Source: Elusimicrobia bacterium HGW-Elusimicrobia-3
GTDB taxonomy: Bacteria; Elusimicrobiota; Elusimicrobia; Elusimicrobiales; UBA9959
Assembly (NCBI GenBank): GCA_002840355.1
Contig: PHAL01000015.1
Coordinates: 1-44,588, forward strand
Direction of reading: 5' to 3'
Length of the DNA: 44,588 bases
In this document: piece by piece, positions 24,482-38,814 of the stretch
Layout: each line of letters begins with the position of its first letter
How positions within the stretch are numbered: the first letter of the stretch is position 1
Notes under the pieces: generated by a model
The model's database searches: none
Told to the model about the DNA's origin: nothing
Seen by the model: only the letters and a program-made list of their open reading frames with translations
Position numbers and translations under genes: made by a program

Positions 24482-24586
24482 TGGTCCTCCAGCTGCGGGA
24501 TTAACTGCTTTTTATTATATGTAATTGGCGCTCCAACTAAAAAGCCGTTTTTGGTATCATGGGTTAGCGGAGCCAGGGAGGGCAAT

Positions 24587-25741
24587 ATGGGCGGATACGA
24601 GGACAGGAAAATAATTTTAAAGGGCATACTGGGCGAACTGCACGCCGGCCTGCCGCTTGAGGACGCGAAGAAGAAATTCCTCGCCGAGATCGGCACGGTC
24701 ACCTCGAAGGAGATCTTCGAGCTGGAGCAGTCGCTGCTCGAGGACGGCGTGCCCGCCGAGGAGATCAAGAAGTTCTGCAACGTGCACGCGCTGCTGTTCG
24801 ATTCTTCGCTTGAGAAGAGCATGGCCGACCCGGCCGACCCGCGCCACCCCGTAGCCCTGTTCAAGGCCGAGAACGCCGAGATCAAGCGCCGCGTGGAGTC
24901 CGCGCGGGCGCTGCTGCCCGCACTGAAGGACGGCAAAGGCGGCGACTGGGTGCGCAATATCATAGGGGAGCTGCGCGCCGTGATAAAGCATTACGAGCGC
25001 AAGGAGCAGCTGCTGTTCCCGTACCTGGAGAAGGCCGGTTTCTACGGCCCGTCCAAGGTGATGTGGGGCAAGCACGACGAGGTGCGAGGCCTGTTCAAGA
25101 CGGCGCTGGCCGCCTCCCCCGCCGATTTCCCGGCCGCGGCCGCCGCGCTGCTGGAAGAAGTGGACGGCATGATCTTCAAAGAGGAGAGCATCCTCTTCCC
25201 CGCCTCGCTCGAGAAACTCAAGCCCGCCGACTGGGCCGAGATCTTTCGCGAGAGCGCGCAGGCCGGCTATATCTTCATCGACCCGCCCGAGGGCGTGGAC
25301 GAGGCGCTCGATATCGCCCAGAACACCGGCTCCCTCTCCGGCGCCGTGGTGAACCTGCCCAGCGGCAATCTCTCGGTCACGGACCTCACCGCCCTGCTCA
25401 ACGCCCTGCCGGTGGACCTGACCTTCGTGGACGCCGACGACACGGTGAAATACTTCTCCGAGGGCAAGGAGCGCGTCTTCCTGCGCGCCCGCTCCATCAT
25501 CGGCCGCAAGGTGCAGAACTGCCACCCGCCGGCCAGCCTAGGCGCCGTACAGAAGATACTCGACGGCTTCAGGGCCGGCACCAAAAACTCCGAGGAATTC
25601 TGGATAAACATGAAGGGCCGCGCGGTACACATACGCTACTTCGCCCTGCGCGACCCCGGGGGTAAATACCTGGGCTCGCTGGAAGTTACGCAGGACATTA
25701 CCGACATTAAGAAGATCGAAGGCGAGAAGAGGCTGGCTTAA
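24587..25741 (+). CDS. DUF438 protein: hemerythrin-like plus PAS domain
   Basis: 384 residues. An N-terminal DUF438 helical domain ('RKIILKGILGELHAGLPLED', 'ELEQSLLEDGVPAEEIKKFC', 'VHALLF') is followed by a hemerythrin-like four-helix bundle with metal-type His/Glu positions ('HPVALFKAENAEI', 'VIKHYERKEQLLFPYLEK', 'MWGKHDEVRGLF', 'FKEESILFPASLEKL'), then a C-terminal PAS domain ('DLTFVDADDTVKYFSEGKE', 'IIGRKVQNCHPPASL', 'YFALRDPGGKYLGSLEVTQD'). PAS domains of this type often hold heme; CHPP is the likely contact zone. It is a cytosolic redox or gas sensor with no output domain. The start is the ATG at 24587 (AGGGAGG upstream). Only 1 base separates it from the DUF1858 gene. Confidence 0.88.
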   Translation: MGGYEDRKIILKGILGELHAGLPLEDAKKKFLAEIGTVTSKEIFELEQSLLEDGVPAEEIKKFCNVHALLFDSSLEKSMADPADPRHPVALFKAENAEIKRRVESARALLPALKDGKGGDWVRNIIGELRAVIKHYERKEQLLFPYLEKAGFYGPSKVMWGKHDEVRGLFKTALAASPADFPAAAAALLEEVDGMIFKEESILFPASLEKLKPADWAEIFRESAQAGYIFIDPPEGVDEALDIAQNTGSLSGAVVNLPSGNLSVTDLTALLNALPVDLTFVDADDTVKYFSEGKERVFLRARSIIGRKVQNCHPPASLGAVQKILDGFRAGTKNSEEFWINMKGRAVHIRYFALRDPGGKYLGSLEVTQDITDIKKIEGEKRLA

Positions 25742-28529: not shown

Positions 28530-28563
28530 CCGCCGGCTTTCTTTTTATCCTGCCCGCCCCGCA

Positions 28564-28599
28564 AAAAAGAAAGGCCCGGTTTCCCGGGCCTTTCTTTTT
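28564..28599. terminator. Long bidirectional terminator
   Basis: A 16-base stem (28564-28579 with 28584-28599), core GGCCCGG/CCGGGCC, TTTC loop, with A and T tracts in the outer stem. It separates the convergent flavoprotein and LuxC-fusion genes. Confidence 0.92.
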
Positions 28600-28611
28600 G
28601 CGTTCGGCGGC

Positions 28612-31251
28612 TCAGGCCTGCACGCGCTTGTCCACTACCTTGCGTATCTTGCCGGTGCGCTGTATGCGCTCGATGGAACCCGGCTTGAGCACCTCTATGA
28701 CCGGCTTGTCCAGCCACTTCATGCGCACGCTCTCCTGCAAATCCTCGCAATGCTTGGAGATCTCGCGCCACAGCAGGTCGGCTAGTTCGCCGGCGCGGGC
28801 CGTGGCGGCCGGGTCTTTCAGCTCCACGCGTATGGCCAGCGTGTCCTTGTGGCCCTTCTTGGCTATCAGCACCTGGAAGTTGAAGGTCAGGTCCGGCACC
28901 TTGCCCAGCGCCTCCTGTATGTCGTTGACGAACAGGTGCGCCCCGCCGACGTGGATGCGGTCGTCGCAGCGGCCGAGTATCTCGAACATCGGTTCCTTGC
29001 GGCCGCAGGGGCAGGGCTTCTGTATCCAGCGGCCCAGGTCGCCCACGCGGTAGCGGATGATGGGCATATGCTTCTTGGTGAGGCCGGTCACCACCAGCTC
29101 GCCGATAGCGCCGGGCGCTACGGGCTCGAGCGTATCCTGGTCCACGAACTCTATGAACTGGCTGTAGGCGAAGAGGTGATGCTGGCCCTTTACGCAATGC
29201 GGGCATTGGAAGCCCACCACGCCGGCGTCGGCGGTGGCGTAGCCGGCCGAGCGCACGGCCACGCCGGGAAAAGCGCTATTGAAGAACTTCACCATCTCCA
29301 GGCCGACATATTCACCGCCGTAGAAAATGGTCTTCAGCGGCACCTTGTATTTGGGGTTGGCCTTGATGAACTCGGCCAGTTTCACCAGGAAGGAGGGCAG
29401 GCCCACCACGGCGGTTACCCGGAAATCGTGCAGGTAGCCGGCTATGTTCTCCAGCGGCAGGCCGCTGCCCACCGGCACCGAGATGGCCTTGGTATAGGCG
29501 ATGGCCTTCTCCACCGACAGCCAGCTCGACCACAGATTGCCGGCCACGAACAAATTGGCGATGGTGTCCTTGTCGCCCAGGCCGGCGGCCTCCATCGAGA
29601 AGGCCAGCATACGGCAGGTATGGTCGTACTCATGCTGGTCGTAGAAGACGTACTTGGGCTGGCCGGTGGAGCCGCCGCTGGCGAAATAGATGCCGCGCTG
29701 CACCTTCGAGGTCAGCAGGTCGGCGCTGTCGGGCGGAGTATTCTCCAGCACGTGGTGCTTCTCCAGGAACGGCGCCTTCTGGAAATCCTCCAGGGACACT
29801 ATGCGCGGCACGTCCTTGAAGTGCCGCTTGTAGAACGGGCTGCGATTGCGGGCGTGGTCCACCAGCTCGCTCAGGCGGTCGAGCTGCGAGGGCTTCTCCT
29901 CTATGGGCAGCCAGTTGACCAGCGACATCATCGGGAAGATGCCGTCGTGCGGCGAGCCGTTGGACTCCTCGAGCATCTTGCCCAGGCGCACCACGCGGGC
30001 TATGCCGGCGGGGCCCAGCACCTCCATCACGCGCTTGCGTTCTATGGAGCCGCCCACGCCGACGGTCTGTATGTAGCCGCGCAGCGGCAGAATGCGGTCG
30101 CGCACTTCCTCGAGGCTCTCCACGGTTTTAACGTAGAGCACGCGGTTGAGCGGCGACACGCGGTACACGGGATCCTTCTCGTAAATTACCGTCCAGTCGG
30201 TCTTGGGGGCGGAACTGATATAGGCGGCGTTGCCGAGGGCCTGGTCAACGCGGGCCAGCTGGCGGGCCTTGCTGATCTCCACCATCTCGTCGGGGGACAG
30301 CCGGCCGGGCGGCAGGTCGGCGGCCAGCGCCGAGAAATGTTTGCGGGCATGCTTGAGGAAGTCGGCGGCCAGCGCCTTATGGCGGGCGGCCGGGGCTATG
30401 AAATAAAGGGTATGCAGCGAGGAGCAGGCGGCCTGGTCCCACAGCGAGGCGTCCAGCGCGGCGCGGCGCGCCACATTGTCCATGCCCTCGTGGTCCACGC
30501 AGCTGGCGAAAACCACGCCCACGCTGGTCTTGGGGCCGAAACCCTCCACGCGCACGTCGATAGGCGCTATGCGGCGGTAGGCCTGCACGGCGTCGTAGCC
30601 GCCCCAGACGAAGACGGCGTTGACGTGCCGCAGCGCGGCCTCTTCCAGGCCCTGGCTGCCGCCCTTCCAGGAGAGCACGGCCGCGGAGGCGGCCAGCGCG
30701 CCGCGCTCGTCCACCTCTTTGAGCGCGTCCAGGAACAGGTTGATGAAGTTGGAGCCGGAGGAGGAGAGCTTGACGATATTAACGTTCTTGGTCAGGAAGC
30801 CTATTACCAGCGAATCCAGTATGCCGAGGAAAACGTTGCCGGCCCCGACATGCAGCACCACGCCCTTGGGCATGGCGCGGATAAGCCCCTCGTAGCCGCG
30901 GCGCTCCACCGAGGCTTCCAGCGCGTAAGGCAGGAACAGTTCCATGTTCAGGCGCTTGTTCAGGCCCTGCTTGTTGAGCAGTTCCGGTATCACGTCCAGG
31001 GTCTTGTCTATGACCGGCGCCGAGAAAGAGATCTGGCCTTTGAGGTGGGCGAGCGCCGCCTTGCGGTACTTGCCGCCCTTCTCGAAGAGTTTCCCCGCTT
31101 TCGCCAGCGTCTCGATAATGTACTCGCGCGGCAACCCGGCCAGCAGGCCGCGGGCGGCCTGCGCCCTGCGGCCCAGGTCCTCTATCTCGGCCGCCGTCCA
31201 GGACGACTTGTCCGAGACCTTGCCGAACAAATAGGTGTTGTGTATTTTCAT
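28612..31251 (-). CDS. LuxC-type acyl reductase fused to a PaaK-type adenylate-forming ligase
   Basis: 879 residues, two enzymes in one chain. Residues about 20-450 are a LuxC fatty acyl reductase (ALDH superfamily): nucleotide-binding 'MPKGVVLHVGAGNVFLGILD' (127-146), 'VNIVKLSSSGSNF', and catalytic Cys276 in 'LWDQAACSS'. Residues about 455-879 are a phenylacetate-CoA-ligase-like adenylating enzyme: 'VDHARNRSPFYKRHF', the P-loop 'ASGGSTGQPK' (524-533), 'IIRYRVGDLGRW' (731-742), a CPxC...CPCG zinc pair (683-749), 'GRCDDRIHVGG' (760-770) and a final 'RTGKIRKV' holding the likely catalytic Lys. Predicted role: activate a carboxylic acid and reduce the thioester to an aldehyde with NADPH. Its ATG overlaps the LuxE stop by four bases (ATGA). 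No luciferase is nearby; substrate unknown. Confidence 0.88.
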   Translation of the reverse strand: MKIHNTYLFGKVSDKSSWTAAEIEDLGRRAQAARGLLAGLPREYIIETLAKAGKLFEKGGKYRKAALAHLKGQISFSAPVIDKTLDVIPELLNKQGLNKRLNMELFLPYALEASVERRGYEGLIRAMPKGVVLHVGAGNVFLGILDSLVIGFLTKNVNIVKLSSSGSNFINLFLDALKEVDERGALAASAAVLSWKGGSQGLEEAALRHVNAVFVWGGYDAVQAYRRIAPIDVRVEGFGPKTSVGVVFASCVDHEGMDNVARRAALDASLWDQAACSSLHTLYFIAPAARHKALAADFLKHARKHFSALAADLPPGRLSPDEMVEISKARQLARVDQALGNAAYISSAPKTDWTVIYEKDPVYRVSPLNRVLYVKTVESLEEVRDRILPLRGYIQTVGVGGSIERKRVMEVLGPAGIARVVRLGKMLEESNGSPHDGIFPMMSLVNWLPIEEKPSQLDRLSELVDHARNRSPFYKRHFKDVPRIVSLEDFQKAPFLEKHHVLENTPPDSADLLTSKVQRGIYFASGGSTGQPKYVFYDQHEYDHTCRMLAFSMEAAGLGDKDTIANLFVAGNLWSSWLSVEKAIAYTKAISVPVGSGLPLENIAGYLHDFRVTAVVGLPSFLVKLAEFIKANPKYKVPLKTIFYGGEYVGLEMVKFFNSAFPGVAVRSAGYATADAGVVGFQCPHCVKGQHHLFAYSQFIEFVDQDTLEPVAPGAIGELVVTGLTKKHMPIIRYRVGDLGRWIQKPCPCGRKEPMFEILGRCDDRIHVGGAHLFVNDIQEALGKVPDLTFNFQVLIAKKGHKDTLAIRVELKDPAATARAGELADLLWREISKHCEDLQESVRMKWLDKPVIEVLKPGSIERIQRTGKIRKVVDKRVQA

Positions 31252-32417
31252 AGCATCGTCGCGGCGCTGATGGCGCAGCCCTTAAGTTTGGTCACGCCGG
31301 CGCGCCCTTTTATTTCCAGCACCGGGCCGGGCAGGCCGCAGGAACATTTTTGCCTCACCAGGCCGAAATCGGAACTCAGCACAGACAGCGACGGGTAGCT
31401 GGCCAGGTAAGGCGTGATGAACTGCAGCAGGCCGATCTTATTGAAACCCAGCGGTTCCAGCGTGCCGGGGTGCCGGGCTATCACGCGGCCATAATTGGGG
31501 ATATGGAAATTGCCCAGCCGGCAGTCCACGTAGGGCACGCCGTGCTCCACCATGCCGAACAGGTCGCGCACGCGGGCTACGGGCACGCCCAGGTTATCGG
31601 CGAGGATGCGGCGGTACACCTTCTTGTCCAGCGCCTCGTCGGCCAGCGTTTTCCAGCCGCCCCCGGTGACCACGGAGGAGTCCCGGTTCAGCCTCGGGTA
31701 GCGCCCGTAGCGCCGCTTGAACTCCTCGGTCAGCTTCAGCGCGAAGGCCGGGAAGCCCACCAGCCGCACCAGCGAGCCCGCGGCCTCGAAGCGCCGCAGC
31801 GCCTCCACGGCGCCGTCTATGTCGAAATAGAAGTCGTTCTTCTCCTTGCTCCAGCGGAAGGTGTAGAAGATCTCCCCCTTGGCCGTGAAGCCGGTCAGCA
31901 GCTTGTCGGTCCAGGCGGTGCCCAGGTCTTTGGCCACCTCCGGGTCGTAGGTAAAGCAGATATAGTCGTGCGCGCGCTCCAGGTCGGTCAGGCCCAGGCC
32001 TTCGAACACCCGCCAGGCCATGCGCCGCACCCGCATCAGCGAGCCGCGGTCGAGCTGCATGCGGCTGCGCTGGCCGCTGGTGCCGCTGCTCTTGAGCTCC
32101 AGCGCTATTTTCGAATAGGGCAGCGTGGTCAGGTCGCGCTCCTTGAGGGCCGCGACGAAAAGGTACGGGATCCCGGGGATGTCGGCTTCGGTACGGACGG
32201 AAGCCGGCGAGAAGCCCTCGGCCTTGTACAGCGCCTTGAGCACCGGCGCGCGGCGGCCCTGGAAGTCCAGAGCGGCGCGCATCGCGGCGAGGAAAGCCCG
32301 GGAAGTTTTGGGCGAATAAGCGAAAGCCGGCGTTTCGAACAGCGCGTCCATGGCGCTTCGGCTCCTCAGCGGCTTATGGAAAGGCGGCAGTTTGTCCTCG
32401 ACTGAAAGATCGGCCAC
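31248..32417 (-). CDS. Acyl-protein synthetase, LuxE family
   Basis: 389 residues, close to LuxE (about 370). LuxE makes acyl-AMP from a fatty acid and passes the acyl group to its own Cys, from which LuxC reduces it. Seen: 'ALELKSSGTSGQRSR' (105-119), the ATP/phosphate loop; 'VVTGGGWK' (249-256); 'RDLFGMVEHGVPYVDC' (284-299); and a C-terminal 'CSCGLPGPVLEIKGRAG' (358-374) with Cys358/Cys360 near where LuxE has its acyl-carrying Cys. The GTG at 32417 follows AGGGGGAACC and is 8 bases after the GNAT gene; an in-frame extension to 33416 is rejected because it overlaps that gene. The stop TGA overlaps the next ATG, so expression is coupled. Confidence 0.88.
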   Translation of the reverse strand: MADLSVEDKLPPFHKPLRSRSAMDALFETPAFAYSPKTSRAFLAAMRAALDFQGRRAPVLKALYKAEGFSPASVRTEADIPGIPYLFVAALKERDLTTLPYSKIALELKSSGTSGQRSRMQLDRGSLMRVRRMAWRVFEGLGLTDLERAHDYICFTYDPEVAKDLGTAWTDKLLTGFTAKGEIFYTFRWSKEKNDFYFDIDGAVEALRRFEAAGSLVRLVGFPAFALKLTEEFKRRYGRYPRLNRDSSVVTGGGWKTLADEALDKKVYRRILADNLGVPVARVRDLFGMVEHGVPYVDCRLGNFHIPNYGRVIARHPGTLEPLGFNKIGLLQFITPYLASYPSLSVLSSDFGLVRQKCSCGLPGPVLEIKGRAGVTKLKGCAISAATML

Positions 32418-32425
32418 GGTTCCCC

Positions 32426-33622
32426 CTATTTCTGCTCGGAGTCGAAAACCAGCTCTATGTAGTTCTCGCGCCAGAGCTTCAGGTACTCGTTCAGGAAATT
32501 CTTGTAGAGCGAGATGATCCTGACGTTGCGGAAGTCCAGGATGTCGAACGTGCGCGAGAAGACCACGCAGTCGTAGCGCTTGTCTTCCATGCGCTTGGCG
32601 CTCGGGAAGTAGGCGCTCGGTATAAAGCGCGCGTCCAGCGCGTCGCGCTGCAGCTCCGGGGAGTAGGCGTCTATGATGACCTCCACGTAGCTCATGTCCA
32701 TCCGGCTGACCTGCTGCGCCACGCTCTCGAGCACCACGGCGAAACTCTTCTCGTTGGTCACGCCGCCCACGATCACGCTGTACTTGTCCTTCTGGCTGTA
32801 GGTAATGTAAACCTCGGTACCCTGGTCCGGAGTGATCAGGATCAGATTGGGCTCGTGGAAAGGCATGAAGATGTTCTCGAAGAAGCTGTTGCTCTTCGTC
32901 TTCTTCCAGCGGTGCTTTATGAACTCCGTCGCGGTGATGGTCTCGAAGTTCAGCAGCGGGATCTTCTGCTTGTGGTCGCTGTAGTCGCGCCGGACTTCGC
33001 TTAGCTGCGCCGGCTCCAGGTTGATCTGGCGGCGGACGATCTCGTAGAACGGCGCTATCTCGGGGATGATGACAGGGGTGGTGCGGCGGCGCTGCAGGGC
33101 GCGATCGGTGAAATAGGCGGTCAGGCAGTGCGTTTCGTTGTCCTGCACCTTGTGCGTGTTGGGGAAGATGCCCAGCTTGATGAAGCCCAGGCTCTCGGTG
33201 AGCTTCTGCGGGGCGTGGTTGGCGGTGCGGGTGGTGGCGTAGACCAGGTCCACCAGGTCCTTGGTCTGGGTGATGTCGTCGAGCACCAGCTTCATCATGG
33301 TGAAAGCCAGGTCGTGCTTGCGGAACTCCTGGCTGACCACGGCGCCGAAGGCCTTGGAGTTGCGGTACAGCAGGTCCACAGAGTAGACCAGGCTGCCTAT
33401 CACGCGGCCCTGGCATTCGGCCACCAGCCAGTAATATTCGTCGTTCTCGATGGCGCTGCGCATCTTGTCTTTGTCGGCGATGATCGGTATCGGGTAGGCG
33501 GCGCCGTAGACTTCCGCGTACAGCATCTGTATGCGGCGCATGTCGGCGACGCGGGCCAGCCGGATGATGATATCCTGCTTGCCCTCGGCTTTTATTATCT
33601 TCTCTATTTTTTTATGCGCCAT
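32426..33622 (-). CDS. GNAT acyltransferase with extra C-terminal domain
   Basis: 398 residues. An N-terminal GNAT fold (about 18-180): 'IIIRLARVADMRRIQMLYAEVY' (beta1-alpha1), 'WLVAECQGRVIGSLVYSVD' (beta2-3), 'AFGAVVSQEFRKHDLAFTMM' (beta4-alpha3, acetyl-CoA pyrophosphate region, a diverged RxxGxA loop), 'VYATTRTANHAPQKLTESLG' and 'FIKLG' (alpha4-beta6). Residues about 185-398 form a second domain with a further beta-alpha pattern ('EVYITYSQKDKYSVIVGGV', 'VEVIIDAYSPELQRDALDA'), perhaps a degenerate second GNAT. It heads the operon with LuxE 8 bases downstream. It may acylate an amine substrate, the product or a partner enzyme; which is not visible. The start has GGGGAG very close upstream. 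Confidence 0.8.
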   Translation of the reverse strand: MAHKKIEKIIKAEGKQDIIIRLARVADMRRIQMLYAEVYGAAYPIPIIADKDKMRSAIENDEYYWLVAECQGRVIGSLVYSVDLLYRNSKAFGAVVSQEFRKHDLAFTMMKLVLDDITQTKDLVDLVYATTRTANHAPQKLTESLGFIKLGIFPNTHKVQDNETHCLTAYFTDRALQRRRTTPVIIPEIAPFYEIVRRQINLEPAQLSEVRRDYSDHKQKIPLLNFETITATEFIKHRWKKTKSNSFFENIFMPFHEPNLILITPDQGTEVYITYSQKDKYSVIVGGVTNEKSFAVVLESVAQQVSRMDMSYVEVIIDAYSPELQRDALDARFIPSAYFPSAKRMEDKRYDCVVFSRTFDILDFRNVRIISLYKNFLNEYLKLWRENYIELVFDSEQK

Positions 33623-33649
33623 AGCTCCCCGGTGGTTTCAGACCCAATG

Positions 33650-33660
33650 TATAATATAAT
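33650..33660 (+). promoter_or_regulatory. Overlapping -10 boxes in the divergent AT-rich spacer
   Basis: Two TATAAT hexamers overlap at 33650-33655 and 33655-33660. The same AT block read on the minus strand gives TATATT/TATTAT, so it probably drives both the lipoprotein gene and the GNAT-LuxE-LuxC operon. No convincing -35 is visible. Confidence 0.4.
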
Positions 33661-33713
33661 ATAGTAAAAATAAGCGTCTTTTGATAATGACCAATATCAG
33701 CAACGGGCCAAGC

Positions 33714-34616
33714 ATGAAAAAGATCAAACTAATACTGCTGCTGGCGGCACTGCCGGCCTTCTGGGGCTGCGCCTCCTTCAATTCCGGCGACACGCGGGTG
33801 GACCGCTCCGTGGCGATGGCCATGCTCGAGGACAAGGCCGTGGTCCCCTTCGCCGAGCTCGAGGTGGGCTGGCGCAACTTCCCCTACCGCGCCCCTACGG
33901 ATTCCATAGGCGAGGGCTCCGCCTCCCGCCCCGCCAAGAAGATCAAGCCGGTGCCGGTGGGCTACGGCGAAGAGGCCGCTTTTGTCGCCGAGGCGCGCGA
34001 GATCTTTGGCCGGGCCGGCCTCTACGACAAAACCCGCGGCCAGGGCACGCTCCGCGTGGAGTTGACCACTTTCGGCCGCTGGACCTACAGCGACCTGTTC
34101 CGCTCCTTCCTGGTGGACACCGGCTTCATCTTCATCATCCCCGCCTCGCTGCGGGTCAACTACTTCATGACGGCGGATTTCGCCGCCGGCGGCAAGGCGT
34201 TGCGCGTGGAGACCGAAGCGACCAATAAGACCACCTTCCACCTGCTGCTGGCCCCGCTGTACCCTTTCCTGTCGCCCGGCGCCAAGGAAAACTCGCTGCT
34301 GCGCCAGATGCTCTGGCGCTCGGCCACCGACACCTACTCCAGGCTGAAGGCGGCCGGCGTGCCGGCGGCCCCGCTGCCGCCCAAGACCAAGGAGCAGCGC
34401 GACGCCGAACTGCCCCTCTCCGGCCCGCCGGTACAGCCTGACCGCACCTGGCTGCCGGGCGAGACCGGCTCTTCCGAAGTCCCCGCGGCCCCGGAGGAAC
34501 CGGCCAAGACCTGGAAGGTGAACCCGCCCCCCGCGGCTGAGCCCGCCCAGCCCGCTCCCGCCGCGGTCCCGGCGCCGGCCGACGAGCCAGCCCCGGACGA
34601 ACCCACGGACGACTGA
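33714..34616 (+). CDS. Putative lipoprotein of unknown function
   Basis: 300 residues from the ATG at 33714, chosen because it begins the signal sequence MKKIKLILLLAALPAFWGC. The lipobox (FWGC) is atypical at -3 and -2 but has the required Gly-Cys, so lipidation at Cys19 is likely. A mixed alpha/beta domain (about 40-220) contains 'GTLRVELTTFGRWTYSDL', a hydrophobic 'TGFIFIIPASLRVNYFMTAD' and 'HLLLAPLYPFLSPGAKENSL'; the C-terminal 70 residues are Pro/Ala/Glu-rich and probably disordered. The layout recalls envelope lipoproteins but no family is recognised. An extension upstream to 33681 is rejected for lack of a ribosome site. Confidence 0.75.
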   Translation: MKKIKLILLLAALPAFWGCASFNSGDTRVDRSVAMAMLEDKAVVPFAELEVGWRNFPYRAPTDSIGEGSASRPAKKIKPVPVGYGEEAAFVAEAREIFGRAGLYDKTRGQGTLRVELTTFGRWTYSDLFRSFLVDTGFIFIIPASLRVNYFMTADFAAGGKALRVETEATNKTTFHLLLAPLYPFLSPGAKENSLLRQMLWRSATDTYSRLKAAGVPAAPLPPKTKEQRDAELPLSGPPVQPDRTWLPGETGSSEVPAAPEEPAKTWKVNPPPAAEPAQPAPAAVPAPADEPAPDEPTDD

Positions 34617-34620
34617 CCGG

Positions 34621-34664
34621 GTCAAATAAAAAACCCCGCCTTCGAGCGGGGTTTTTTATTTGAC
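34621..34664. terminator. Long bidirectional terminator
   Basis: A perfect 19-base stem (34621-34639 with 34646-34664), GC core CCCCGC/GCGGGG inside A/T arms, six-base loop. It ends the lipoprotein gene on + and the small secreted protein gene on -. Confidence 0.92.
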
Positions 34665-34673
34665 GGTCGAGAC

Positions 34674-35180
34674 TTACTTGCCTGCCTTTTCCTGCTTGGC
34701 CGGCTGTTCGGAGGGAGCCGCGGCCCCGGCAGCGGCGGGCTTTTCCTCTGAGGCCTTCTCTTCGGCCGGCTTCGCCTCGGGGGCGGGCAAATTGGCCAGC
34801 GCCTCTTTAGCGTCGGCCGCGAAGAAACTCTCGGGGTTGTCCTTCAGGAACTTGTTCAGCGCGGCGCGGCCGCCCTCCATGTCCCCGTTGACCACCAGTT
34901 CCACGGCCCCGGTGAGCTGCTTCTTCTCTTCTTCGAGCTTCTTGCGGGCCTTGTCGGAAATTCCGCCTTTCCAGTAGAGGGCATTGGCGTCCTCGCCCTG
35001 CCTGGCTCCGCGCACGGCCGCCACGGCGCTGACGCGGTGTTTGGATTCCAACTTGCGCTCCACCTTGGACTTCAGGCCGCGCAGCATGTTGTTGTACCAG
35101 GACTTCCAGTCCTTGGCCGGCTCGGCCCGCAGCGCGCTCACCGAGAACAGCAGCGCCATAACGATTATTAATTTTTTCAT
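34674..35180 (-). CDS. Small secreted protein, partner of the NHL protein
   Basis: 168 residues. Signal peptide MKKLIIVMALLFSVSALRA. The mature part is charged and helical: 'WKSWYNNMLRGLKSKVERKL', then a TPR-like pair of helices ('ANALYWKGGISDKARKKLEE', 'NGDMEGGRAALNKFLKDNPE', 'FFAADAKEALANL'), and a low-complexity tail of Ala, Glu, Pro and Lys that is probably disordered. GGAGG lies 5-6 bases before the ATG. It starts 15 bases after the NHL gene and is thus its operon partner. No known family is recognised; a periplasmic scaffold role is a guess. Confidence 0.75.
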   Translation of the reverse strand: MKKLIIVMALLFSVSALRAEPAKDWKSWYNNMLRGLKSKVERKLESKHRVSAVAAVRGARQGEDANALYWKGGISDKARKKLEEEKKQLTGAVELVVNGDMEGGRAALNKFLKDNPESFFAADAKEALANLPAPEAKPAEEKASEEKPAAAGAAAPSEQPAKQEKAGK

Positions 35181-35195
35181 GATACCTCCGGTTCC

Positions 35196-38100
35196 TTACT
35201 TGGCCAGCTTGTCGCCCATGCTCTTGAGCGCGGGGTCTATCTTGGCCGCCCTGTCGGCGTAGGCCTTCACGTCGTCCTTGCGGCCCAGCTTCGCGGAGAC
35301 CCTGGCCATGTTCAGCCAGATATTGCCGTCGAACGGGTCGGCCTTGGCGGCCTTGAAGTAGTACTCCTTGGCCTCGTCGTATTTGCCGTCGCTGTAGCGC
35401 AGGTTGCCCAGGTTGTTCAGCGCGCCGGCGTTGAAAGGCTCTTTCTCCAGCGCTTTTTCGAAGCTCCCGGCGGCCTCCGCGTAAGACTTATGCTCGGCGT
35501 GCAGGATGCCGAGGCTGATATGGGCCTCGACGTCCTCAGGGTTGTCCTGCAGGATGTTCCCGTAGAACTTCTTGAGGTGCGCGTAGCGGGCGTCCAGCAG
35601 CGCGGCGACCGCGCCTTTCACGCGGGCGGTAAGGCCGGGCGACGCGAACTTGTCGGCTTCGGTCTCGGGCAGCGTCACCGGCTCGAATTCGGACCAAGCG
35701 GCGCGCACGTCTATCACGCGCACTTCGCCCTCCATCTTGCGGTAGAGGTCGGCGGCGTGCACCAGCGAGTCGTAGAAGCTCTTGCCCACCATCGTGGTCT
35801 CCACGCCCACCCACCAGGTGTTGTTGTGCTTTATCAGGTATTCCTCCGGCACGCCGGTCTGGCTGGCGTCGGTGGCGCCGGTGTCGAACATCAGCGCGAT
35901 GTGGTTGGGGAAGTCCAGCAGCGCCACGTGCAGGCCGCTGGCCTCGTAGACGCTGGCGAACAGCGCGGTCAGGTCGTCGCAGTCGCCGCTCTTGAACTTG
36001 AGCGTGTTGCGGGGGAACTGCACGGTGTCGAGCACCAGCTCCTTGCTGGATTTCAGCACGGCGTAGGGGCTCACCGGGTCGGCCAGGTAGGTGACGCCGT
36101 ACTCGCCGAGCGCCTCCCAGGCCAGCAGGCCGGTCAGCAGGTTCTCGTCGAGCAGGGCCGCGCCGGCCTCGGCGTTCTTCTTCTCCAGCAGCGCGTGGGT
36201 GCGGAACGCGGTGATGGTCGGGTCCTTGACCGTGATGAAGTTGGCCAGCCTGGCCGCGTTATCCCAGACTATCGCGTTCTTGGAGAGCACCTTCACCGGC
36301 TGGTTGAGCGTAAAGGTCTTCTCCGCGCCGTCCTGGTAATAGGTCAGCGTCATCTGGCACTGTATCGGGGTGTCCTCGGTGATGTTGAGGATGCGGTTGT
36401 TGAGCGTGGCCACCAGGTCCACGTCCACCTTGCTGCCCGCTTTCACCTCGGGCACCACGGTGTCGCTGGGAAAGTCCATGAAGTCCTTGAAGAAGAAAGA
36501 GAGCTTCACGTTGGCGAAGTCGCTCTGCGTGTTGTTCTGCACCGTCACGCGGCCGACGGGCTTCTTCATGTAGTACTTGTAGTTGGCCGAGAAGATGAAG
36601 TTCAGCGCCGACGGGATGATCTCCATCGGGGCCACGTTCTTGCGTTCCGCGGCGGCCTCGGGCTCGGGGGCCGGCGCCGGGGCCTCGGGCCCCTTGAAAT
36701 AAACCTCCACGGGGCTGGAGAGGCCGCCCTGCATGCCGCGCACCGAGAGCGCCGCGGCGTAGTAATAATAGGTGGTATCCGGCTTCAGCGCGGAGTCCTC
36801 ATAGGCCATCCCCTTGGCCGAGCCGGCCTCCTCCATGTCGTCGGCGCCGGCGGCGCGATACACCTTGAAGCCCTTGGTCCAGGCGTTGGCCTTGGCCTGC
36901 CAGGCGAGCTTCACGGACTTATCGCCGGCCTCGGCCGAGATGGCGGTCGGCTCCTCTGGCAGGTAGCTGACGTCGAAGGCCACCACGCGCGAGGCCTCCA
37001 GGTCGGAGACGTAGATCTTGTCGTCGCTGAAGGCCATGTACTGCGGGGCCCACAGCTCGCGCTCGCCGCGGCCCTTGGCGAAGAAGCTGGAGGTGAAGCG
37101 GCCGTCGGCGTCGAAGATCTTCACGCTGTAAGCGCCCCTGTCGAGGATGTAGAAGAAGCCCTTGCCGTCGTAGGACAGCGAGGCGGGGTCCTTGAGGCTA
37201 CCGGAGTCGTCCCAGACGCGCAGGAACTTGCCCATGGCGTCGGTCACTATGACCTTCTTGAGCACGGAATCCAGGATGTAGACGTTCTTGTTCTCGTCGC
37301 AGACCACGTCCACGGGGGCGGCCAGGGTGAGGCTGCCCAGCTGCGGCCCCATAGTGAACAGGAACATCCCGTCGGCGCTGAAGGCCTTCACCATCTTGTT
37401 CCTGGTGTCGGCCACGTAGATATTGCCGGCCGCGTTGACGGCCACCGCCGAGGGGTTCCTGAACTGGCCCTCGCCGGAGCCGCTGCCGCCGAACATGTTG
37501 TCGTACGTGCCGTCGGGGTTGAAGATCTGCACCCGGTCGTTGCCGGTGTCGGCGGCGTAGATGAGGCCCTTCGGGGACACCAGCAGGCCGCGCGGCGAGC
37601 GCAGCTGCCCCTGCAGCTTGCCCTCTTTCACCAGCGTCTTCTTGGTCCCGTTCTCCAGCAGCGCCAGTTCCCTGGCCTCGGGCAGCCAGGCCACCACCTT
37701 GCCCTCCGGGGTCACGGCGAACACGTCGGCCTTGTGGGGGAACTTGGCCGTGGGGCCCTTCACGGTGAAGCGGTCCAGGATGGCGGCCTCGGGCAGGCGG
37801 GGGCCGGAGTAGGAGGTGATCACCTTGATCACGGCGACCTTCTTGTTCTCCTCGTCGCAGAGGTGCAGCGTGCCTTCCTTGCCGATGGCGATGTCGCGCA
37901 GGTTGCGGAACTCGCTCTTGCCCTTGCCCTTGGTGCCGAAAGTGGCGATCTTCTCGCCGGTCTCGGAGAGCTCCATCACCTTGCCGTCCCTGGCGCTGAT
38001 GGCGTACAGGTAACCGTACCTGTCGAAGGCGGCGCCGTTATTGGGGAGGGCGTACTCCTTGAGCAGCTTGCCGGTCCGGTCATAGCGCTGCAGCGCGCCC

Positions 38101-38663
38101 TTGTCCGGGTCGGAGAGGATGATATCGCCGGAGCGGCTGAGAGAGATCTTGGCGGGACGAAGTTTGGTCACCCCGTCGGCCTTGGCCACCGGGAAACCGT
38201 AGAGATAAATACCGTCGGCGTTGAACACGTCCACCCGGGAATTGCCGGTGTTGGAGACATAGAGGCGGCCGTCGGGACCGAACGCTATGCCCTTGGGGGA
38301 CTTCAGCTGGCCCGGCTCGGCGCCGTCGCTGCCGAAGGCCCAGAGCAGGCGACCTTCTTCGTCGAAAACCACCACGCGGGAGTTGCCGGTGTCGGCCACG
38401 TACAGTTTGCCGCCGCCAAGCGTCAGGGCCTCGGGGGATTTCAGCCCGCCCTCTATCTTTTTGCCGGGCTTGCCCTCGGCGTCGAAGACGAAGACCGCGT
38501 TGAGCTTGGAGTCGGCCACGTACACCGTGCCGCCGGAGACGGCCACGGCGGCAGGCTTCTGCATGGCCGGGTTCAGCAGCAGGCCCTTGAACTCTATCCG
38601 CTCATAGGCGGACGCGGCCGTTACCGCGGCGAATAAGATGGCCGAAAAAATAGCGCTTTTCAT
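35196..38663 (-). CDS. Secreted NHL-repeat, FN3, transglutaminase-like, TPR protein
   Basis: 1155 residues. Signal peptide MKSAIFSAILFAAVTAASA. Residues about 20-590: many NHL repeats ('LYVADTGNSRVVVFDEEGRL', 'LYVSNTGNSRVDVFNADGIY', 'IYAADTGNDRVQIFNPDGTY', 'IYVADTRNKMVKAFSADGMF'), enough for two beta-propellers. About 600-685: an FN3 domain ending 'LKPDTTYYYYAAALSV'. About 700-810: an Ig-like beta domain. About 830-990: a transglutaminase-like core with 'KSGDCDDLTALFASVYEASG' (candidate Cys) and 'FPNHIALMFDTG' (candidate His and Asp). About 1035-1155: TPR repeats ('AAGSFEKALEKEPFNAGALN', 'AKEYYFKAAKADPFDGNIWL'). Start 38663 follows GGGGAGG. Exported and likely periplasmic or surface-bound; possible peptide cross-linking or hydrolysis. 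Activity is inferred only. Confidence 0.87.
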   Translation of the reverse strand: MKSAIFSAILFAAVTAASAYERIEFKGLLLNPAMQKPAAVAVSGGTVYVADSKLNAVFVFDAEGKPGKKIEGGLKSPEALTLGGGKLYVADTGNSRVVVFDEEGRLLWAFGSDGAEPGQLKSPKGIAFGPDGRLYVSNTGNSRVDVFNADGIYLYGFPVAKADGVTKLRPAKISLSRSGDIILSDPDKGALQRYDRTGKLLKEYALPNNGAAFDRYGYLYAISARDGKVMELSETGEKIATFGTKGKGKSEFRNLRDIAIGKEGTLHLCDEENKKVAVIKVITSYSGPRLPEAAILDRFTVKGPTAKFPHKADVFAVTPEGKVVAWLPEARELALLENGTKKTLVKEGKLQGQLRSPRGLLVSPKGLIYAADTGNDRVQIFNPDGTYDNMFGGSGSGEGQFRNPSAVAVNAAGNIYVADTRNKMVKAFSADGMFLFTMGPQLGSLTLAAPVDVVCDENKNVYILDSVLKKVIVTDAMGKFLRVWDDSGSLKDPASLSYDGKGFFYILDRGAYSVKIFDADGRFTSSFFAKGRGERELWAPQYMAFSDDKIYVSDLEASRVVAFDVSYLPEEPTAISAEAGDKSVKLAWQAKANAWTKGFKVYRAAGADDMEEAGSAKGMAYEDSALKPDTTYYYYAAALSVRGMQGGLSSPVEVYFKGPEAPAPAPEPEAAAERKNVAPMEIIPSALNFIFSANYKYYMKKPVGRVTVQNNTQSDFANVKLSFFFKDFMDFPSDTVVPEVKAGSKVDVDLVATLNNRILNITEDTPIQCQMTLTYYQDGAEKTFTLNQPVKVLSKNAIVWDNAARLANFITVKDPTITAFRTHALLEKKNAEAGAALLDENLLTGLLAWEALGEYGVTYLADPVSPYAVLKSSKELVLDTVQFPRNTLKFKSGDCDDLTALFASVYEASGLHVALLDFPNHIALMFDTGATDASQTGVPEEYLIKHNNTWWVGVETTMVGKSFYDSLVHAADLYRKMEGEVRVIDVRAAWSEFEPVTLPETEADKFASPGLTARVKGAVAALLDARYAHLKKFYGNILQDNPEDVEAHISLGILHAEHKSYAEAAGSFEKALEKEPFNAGALNNLGNLRYSDGKYDEAKEYYFKAAKADPFDGNIWLNMARVSAKLGRKDDVKAYADRAAKIDPALKSMGDKLAK

Positions 38664-38814
38664 TGTACTGCCTCCCCTTAGGTTCTTTGCCTTTATTTTA
38701 TTAAATTTAGCCGCCTTTTGGGGCGCCGTCAAAGGCCGCGGGCCAACCGGCAAAATCCTCCTTGATTTAACCCCCTTAATTTTTTAGGATACCCCTATTC
38801 GCGAATAACCGGAG

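Follow-up and report, generated by a model that had tools for sequence, protein, structure and literature searches.

Among the closest described counterparts of the genes discussed here is the LuxC-LuxE fatty acid reductase of bacterial bioluminescence, known from the complex 7xc6. Our subject is a trio of genes, encoding a tandem GNAT acyltransferase, a LuxE-family acyl-protein synthetase and a LuxC reductase fused to a PaaK-type adenylate-forming ligase (LuxC::PaaK), in Elusimicrobia bacterium HGW-Elusimicrobia-3. The stretch analysed, hereafter the window, is one whole contig of 44,588 nucleotides (PHAL01000015.1) from a metagenome-assembled genome (MAG) of 2.88 Mb in 95 contigs, which is 97% complete and holds one LuxC. 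The trio shares with 7xc6 both protein families, the LuxE adenylation motif and C-terminal cysteine, and the LuxC cysteine, but differs in the absence of luciferase, the fusion of LuxC to PaaK, the GNAT partner and an identity of about 25%, far below the equivalog cut-offs of NCBIfam. On balance, and with little more than even confidence, we read the trio as a luciferase-free LuxE/LuxC-type carboxylic-acid reductase, driven by ATP and NADPH, that has a PaaK ligase built in and an N-acyltransferase as its partner; together they would make a small metabolite.

LuxC and LuxE are already known outside light emission. The flagellin glycosylation islands of Aeromonas and Enterobacteriaceae hold luxE and luxC without luciferase but, unlike the trio, include genes for an acyl carrier protein (ACP), a FabG-like ketoacyl reductase, an AMP-synthetase and a glycosyltransferase (PMC7874193; PMC4875605). 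In these islands LuxC and LuxE are thought to make an acyl or hydroxyacyl side group, and the trio could do the same for a cell-envelope polymer; we consider such surface-glycan or envelope tailoring unlikely, as the conserved unit has no ACP, FabG/FabZ, glycosyltransferase or sugar gene. Alike in manner of working is GriC/GriD of grixazone biosynthesis, where two proteins of a secondary-metabolite cluster adenylate an aromatic acid and reduce it to the aldehyde (Suzuki 2007, as cited in PMC10179220); the likeness is one of description, and the excerpt concerned mentions neither a PaaK fusion nor a tandem GNAT. In the mycobacterial mel2 locus, a LuxC-like protein occurs together with a luciferase-like protein. 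Finally, the natural-product PaaK-family ligases NatL2, AjiA1, ClxA and BagE/FevW have the fold and motifs of the C-terminal half of the fusion, while in the trio the ligase sits behind a LuxC reductase and reaches no equivalog cut-off.

A first-pass annotation, made from the sequence of the window, had proposed the trio as the best candidate there for an undescribed system, and had named two observations that would tell against this: a characterised close homologue with a known product, and genes that do not stay together in related genomes. Neither came to light. Searches of the PDB, NCBIfam and the open-access literature turned up no close homologue that has been characterised, and in that literature no description of a LuxC::PaaK fusion or of this gene set was found. 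The claim of novelty has to be narrowed from an undescribed system to an undescribed variant, since luciferase-free LuxC/LuxE is known and plasmids of Streptomyces and Salmonella carry the same module.

Operon layout

The trio runs from 33622 to 28612 on the minus strand, at exactly the coordinates first annotated:

32426..33622, minus strand: tandem-GNAT acyltransferase, 398 residues, first gene of the operon (Pfam, AlphaFold2, Foldseek, conserved adjacency to LuxC::PaaK)
31248..32417, minus strand: LuxE-family acyl-protein synthetase, 389 residues, GTG start (Pfam, 7xc6 alignment, homologue alignment)
28612..31251, minus strand: fusion of a LuxC reductase with a PaaK-type adenylate-forming ligase, 879 residues (Pfam, 7xc6 and PaaK alignments, AlphaFold2, Foldseek)

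The described layout of three minus-strand genes is correct to the base: 8 bases separate the GNAT stop codon from the GTG of luxE, and the luxE stop and luxC start overlap in ATGA. The GTG start is supported by many relatives, in which the same small gap and ATGA overlap are seen and the LuxE matches extend over the 22 residues upstream of the first ATG.

Catalytic residues of LuxE and LuxC::PaaK

The naming of the second gene as an acyl-protein synthetase is borne out by the Pfam family LuxE (PF04443), matched at 1.2e-34 and 120.3 bits against a gathering cut-off of 24.9. Aligned with the P. phosphoreum LuxE of 7xc6, the protein retains the SSGTSG motif and the C-terminal KGC cysteine, with KGC falling on KGC; by analogy with the lux system, we take this cysteine to be the acyl acceptor. 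Across 31 homologues, C381 is invariant, as is most of the SSGTSG motif.

In the fusion, residues 43-447 form the LuxC part (Pfam LuxC, PF05893, 1e-66, 225.9 bits against a cut-off of 21) and residues 454-876 the ligase part (Pfam AMP-binding and AMP-binding_C_2). Cysteine C276, within DQxACxS, aligns with the LuxC cysteine of 7xc6, and the PaaK half aligns with the PaaK structures 4r1l, 2y4o and 2y27. Among 33 divergent homologues C276 is invariant, and the PaaK P-loop SGGSTGxPK, the RxxGD motif and the C-terminal lysine K868 are invariant or nearly so; together with the C-terminal domain, these place the ligase in the PaaK-like adenylate-forming superfamily. The AlphaFold2 model has a predicted local distance difference test score (pLDDT) of 88, and Foldseek places its halves on 7xc6_A (LuxC) and on PaaK ligases, among them two solved with aromatic acids: NatL2 (salicylate) and ClxA (3-amino-4-hydroxybenzoate). 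Streptomyces and Salmonella fusions likewise retain the cysteine of LuxC and the motifs of PaaK, except that in Streptomyces the last lysine of the P-loop is substituted. The fusion reads through without interruption in over 70 genomes and is therefore no artefact of assembly, and the LuxC reductase joined to an adenylate-forming ligase that had been read from the window is indeed one 879-residue frame, with intact active-site signatures in both domains.

In luminescence, LuxC and LuxE work as a pair that reduces fatty acids, and their match to 7xc6 would also fit a lux-like supply of fatty aldehyde or alcohol, without light, for membrane or storage lipids. This use is improbable in our view. 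Both scores fall far under the equivalog cut-offs of the fatty-acid enzymes (88.1 bits against 550 for LuxE, NF052244; 116.7 against 750 for LuxC, NF052251), and the PaaK domain is more like the ligases of aryl acids than those of fatty acids, matching the PaaK equivalog TIGR02155 at 4.8e-49 and 167 bits, below its cut-off of 646.3. The GNAT partner would be superfluous, and no LuxD (PF02273) was found in the 32 genomes of the genus, in a search without a positive control. The luciferase family (PF00296) is likewise found in none of these 32 genomes, with positive controls, which widens to the genus the absence of luxA and luxB noted earlier in the window and leads us to reject bioluminescence. 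Anti-phage defence was also rejected; PADLOC returned no match for the trio or for two proteins of the enlarged clusters described below.

The tandem GNAT

The first gene product matches Pfam Acetyltransf_1 (2.8e-6), and its AlphaFold2 model (pLDDT 89) consists of two GNAT-like halves, as the label "two-domain GNAT" had anticipated. The best PDB matches of this model in Foldseek are ArsN, SpeG and RimI (E 3e-10 to 6e-9, about 160-170 residues), the ArsN match being a structure determined with AST and phosphinothricin, both analogues of amino acids. The GNAT superfamily fold is thus seen by Pfam, AlphaFold2 and Foldseek, while at the position of the acyl-coenzyme A (acyl-CoA) loop RxxGxG/A the window GNAT has RKHDLA. 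This altered loop, and the presence of the RimI/RimL protein acetyltransferases among GNAT folds, would suit a modification of protein or RNA, in which LuxE and PaaK activate an acyl group, the GNAT puts it on the macromolecule and LuxC serves chiefly as a scaffold that holds the acyl group. Such a role is very improbable, given that LuxC retains its catalytic cysteine and reductase fold and that the transporters of the enlarged clusters suit a diffusible product.

Conservation and linkage in Elusimicrobiota

The genes of the trio have stayed together across the class, as a survey of gene order, proposed in the first-pass annotation, makes clear. GNAT and fusion occur together in 76 of the 235 genomes of the class, while five have the GNAT only, two the fusion only and 152 neither (81 with the GNAT profile and 78 with the fusion in all), an association far beyond chance, though relatedness inflates its p-value. 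Where GNAT and fusion share a contig, 74 of 75 pairs lie within 6 kb and 74 of 75 on the same strand; in one exception the distance is 13 kb, and in the other the pair is inverted. Full-length fusions, nearly always in one frame, range from 88% identity within the genus to about 31% beyond the family but still within the class. Families f13-f15 retain the order of the core trio at 36-40% identity amid quite different neighbours, which marks the trio as the conserved unit. In some relatives, genes are inserted between GNAT, LuxE and LuxC; those checked (AAA_14/DUF4143; DUF1007 and NicO; phosphonate-binding and ferredoxin-like) are unrelated and differ per genome, and were rejected as pathway members. 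Neighbourhood genes were taken from a simple codon-usage gene caller, with some errors on the far flanks. Among the matches listed, those in other classes of the phylum cover the PaaK part only, and small-genome relatives (1.2-1.6 Mb; family f2, genus g14) show no trio.

Some of these features can be turned towards envelope tailoring: near-universal presence in the family, together with the lack of a transporter, suits a structural role, and a divergent putative lipoprotein gene lies next to the trio.

Enlarged clusters and plasmid-borne copies

Several Elusimicrobiota carry a second, paralogous cluster with the order PaaK, new GNAT-like protein, LuxE, LuxC::PaaK, MFS transporter (MFS_1, 3.9e-22) and tandem GNAT; a putative secreted protein with weak likeness to a glutaminase is often encoded there too. 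Genomes G112, G113, G116 and G190 have two full-length fusions each, one per cluster kind. The new GNAT-like protein (about 490 residues; L105:6675-8153 and relatives) has no match in Pfam or NCBIfam; it has a GNAT-like middle and an N-terminal region that, to the eye, looks like a GHKL-type ATPase.

A tblastn search of plasmids with the GNAT gave matches in three Streptomycetaceae strains, each inside a cluster of the order PaaK-MFS-GNAT-LuxE-LuxC::PaaK. Two conjugative IncF plasmids of Salmonella enterica carry LuxE-LuxC::PaaK-PaaK-GNAT, with transposase or recombinase genes close by:

L111:10560-16318 (CP054717.1): Salmonella cassette
L118:8001-13758 (CP053580.1): Salmonella cassette

On the second plasmid the GNAT is unannotated, yet the DNA is 99.8% identical across the whole cassette. 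The cassette GNAT is nearer to the new GNAT-like protein than to the tandem GNAT (54 vs 15 bits), and the cassette has no megablast match among 5,426 complete E. coli genomes. A scan by short exact peptides outside Elusimicrobiota gave only two LuxC-only loci, and no LuxE relative was found in viral contigs.

In a midpoint-rooted tree of LuxE, with some long outgroup branches and with two Streptomycetaceae rows trimmed by alignment from over-extended frames, the Streptomyces, Salmonella, S. europaeiscabiei and Chloroflexota sequences group with the enlarged-cluster LuxE, apart from those of lux, Rhizobium and Ponticoccus; the branch around the whole group is moderately supported (83/71). The tree bears on envelope tailoring. 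On the Rhizobium and Ponticoccus plasmids, LuxE/LuxC adjoin ACP-like, AMP-binding and SDR genes, and in Rhizobium also a glycosyltransferase gene, as envelope tailoring would have it, but the LuxE of Elusimicrobiota is far from both and nearer to Streptomyces and Salmonella.

Three further loci pair LuxE with LuxC in other surroundings. On the S. europaeiscabiei plasmid NZ_CP109155.1 (L112:2944-11402), the pair adjoins genes for YcaO, a DUF692 multinuclear iron protein, an MBL-fold protein and an MFS protein, as if acid reduction belonged there to a modified-peptide pathway. On a cold-seep Chloroflexota plasmid (CP069395.1; L113:8962-15169), it lies a few kilobases from a heliorhodopsin gene. 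In the MAG of an uncultured proteobacterium (L070:841-10226), it stands in an apparent operon with genes that by eye are isopropylmalate/homocitrate-synthase-like, aconitase-like (large and small subunits), radical SAM-like and for an FAD protein, possibly a pathway of chain elongation plus acid reduction.

Proposed function of the trio

How a luciferase-free reductase with its own ligase and acyltransferase could work is suggested by the domains and their intact LuxE, LuxC and PaaK catalytic residues, seen in sequence and structure models, and by the strict linkage of the genes and the absence of luciferase. From these we infer an order of steps and a direction of acyl flow. LuxE would adenylate an acid with ATP and then hold it as a thioester on its C-terminal cysteine; the acyl group would move to the catalytic cysteine of LuxC, where reduction by NADPH would give the aldehyde. 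The fused PaaK would adenylate an acid, perhaps aromatic, and convert it to a CoA thioester that either feeds LuxC or serves as an acyl donor, and the tandem GNAT would move an acyl group onto an amine. The acid and the amine named here are likewise inferred. That the end product is a small molecule is suggested by the extra PaaK and the MFS transporter of the paralogous clusters, and by the existence of plasmid-borne copies. For the enlarged form, the presence of a transporter and the occurrence on plasmids point to a specialised metabolite that can diffuse, whereas the core trio, without a transporter, may make a related compound that remains inside the cell.

Several observations count against this proposal. 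While the catalytic logic is well supported, that support does not extend to substrate and product. The GNAT CoA-binding loop is altered in the core Elusimicrobiota loci, while some relatives and the Streptomyces homologue (RSAGLA) have the canonical form; this may mean a donor other than acetyl-CoA or a different function of the domain. Beside the core trio there are no genes for a transporter, an ACP or the supply of precursors. The link between core trio and plasmid clusters is one of homology and gene order at 24-35% identity, and their products may therefore differ. An acid-reduction pathway for a purpose other than light had been proposed from the outset: of this, the module of acid activation and reduction stands, with conserved catalytic residues, class-wide gene order and no luciferase, while the substrate, the release of an aldehyde and the action of the GNAT on an aldehyde-derived amine stay at the level of proposals.

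A wider proposal, which we put forward tentatively and would not ourselves expect to hold in full, is that the module forms the core of a cross-phylum class of biosynthetic cluster without nonribosomal peptide synthetase (NRPS) or polyketide synthase (PKS), built of LuxE, LuxC::PaaK, PaaK, tandem GNAT and MFS. Such clusters would make an acylated, aldehyde-derived signal or inhibitor; Streptomycetaceae and Salmonella would carry them on plasmids, and one Elusimicrobiota family would keep them as a near-core trait. That they are a new class is plausible but unproven. We know of very few characterised natural products from Elusimicrobiota. The trio points to a biosynthetic logic independent of NRPS and PKS enzymes, and versions of it on plasmids of culturable bacteria make it testable; a reductase that has the ligase for acid activation in the same chain could, moreover, find practical use as a carboxylic-acid reductase.

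Flanking elements and neighbouring genes

Two non-coding features border the operon:

28561..28602 (core 28569-28594): perfect G+C-rich hairpin with A-run and T-run flanks, a probable two-way terminator (sequence and RNA fold)
33623..33713: AT-rich gap between GNAT and the divergent putative lipoprotein gene, the presumed promoter region (sequence)

The hairpin, with an RNA fold of -33.6 kcal/mol, lies between the operon and a convergent HI0933-like gene and is not among the elements listed by the pattern scan. In the presumed promoter region, the minus strand shows a weak sigma-70-like match (33687-33658).

Upstream, the divergent putative lipoprotein gene (33681-34616) adjoins GNAT in nearly all loci of the family, and with genes for a 168-residue protein and a 1185-residue NHL/TPR protein (all within 33681-38753) it lies beside the trio in most family genomes. 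The NHL/TPR and lipoprotein genes were rejected as members of the system, as they accompany the trio within the family only and not in other families. Elsewhere in the window, 24551-25741 encodes a protein with DUF438, hemerythrin and PAS domains, perhaps a sensor of oxygen or nitric oxide.

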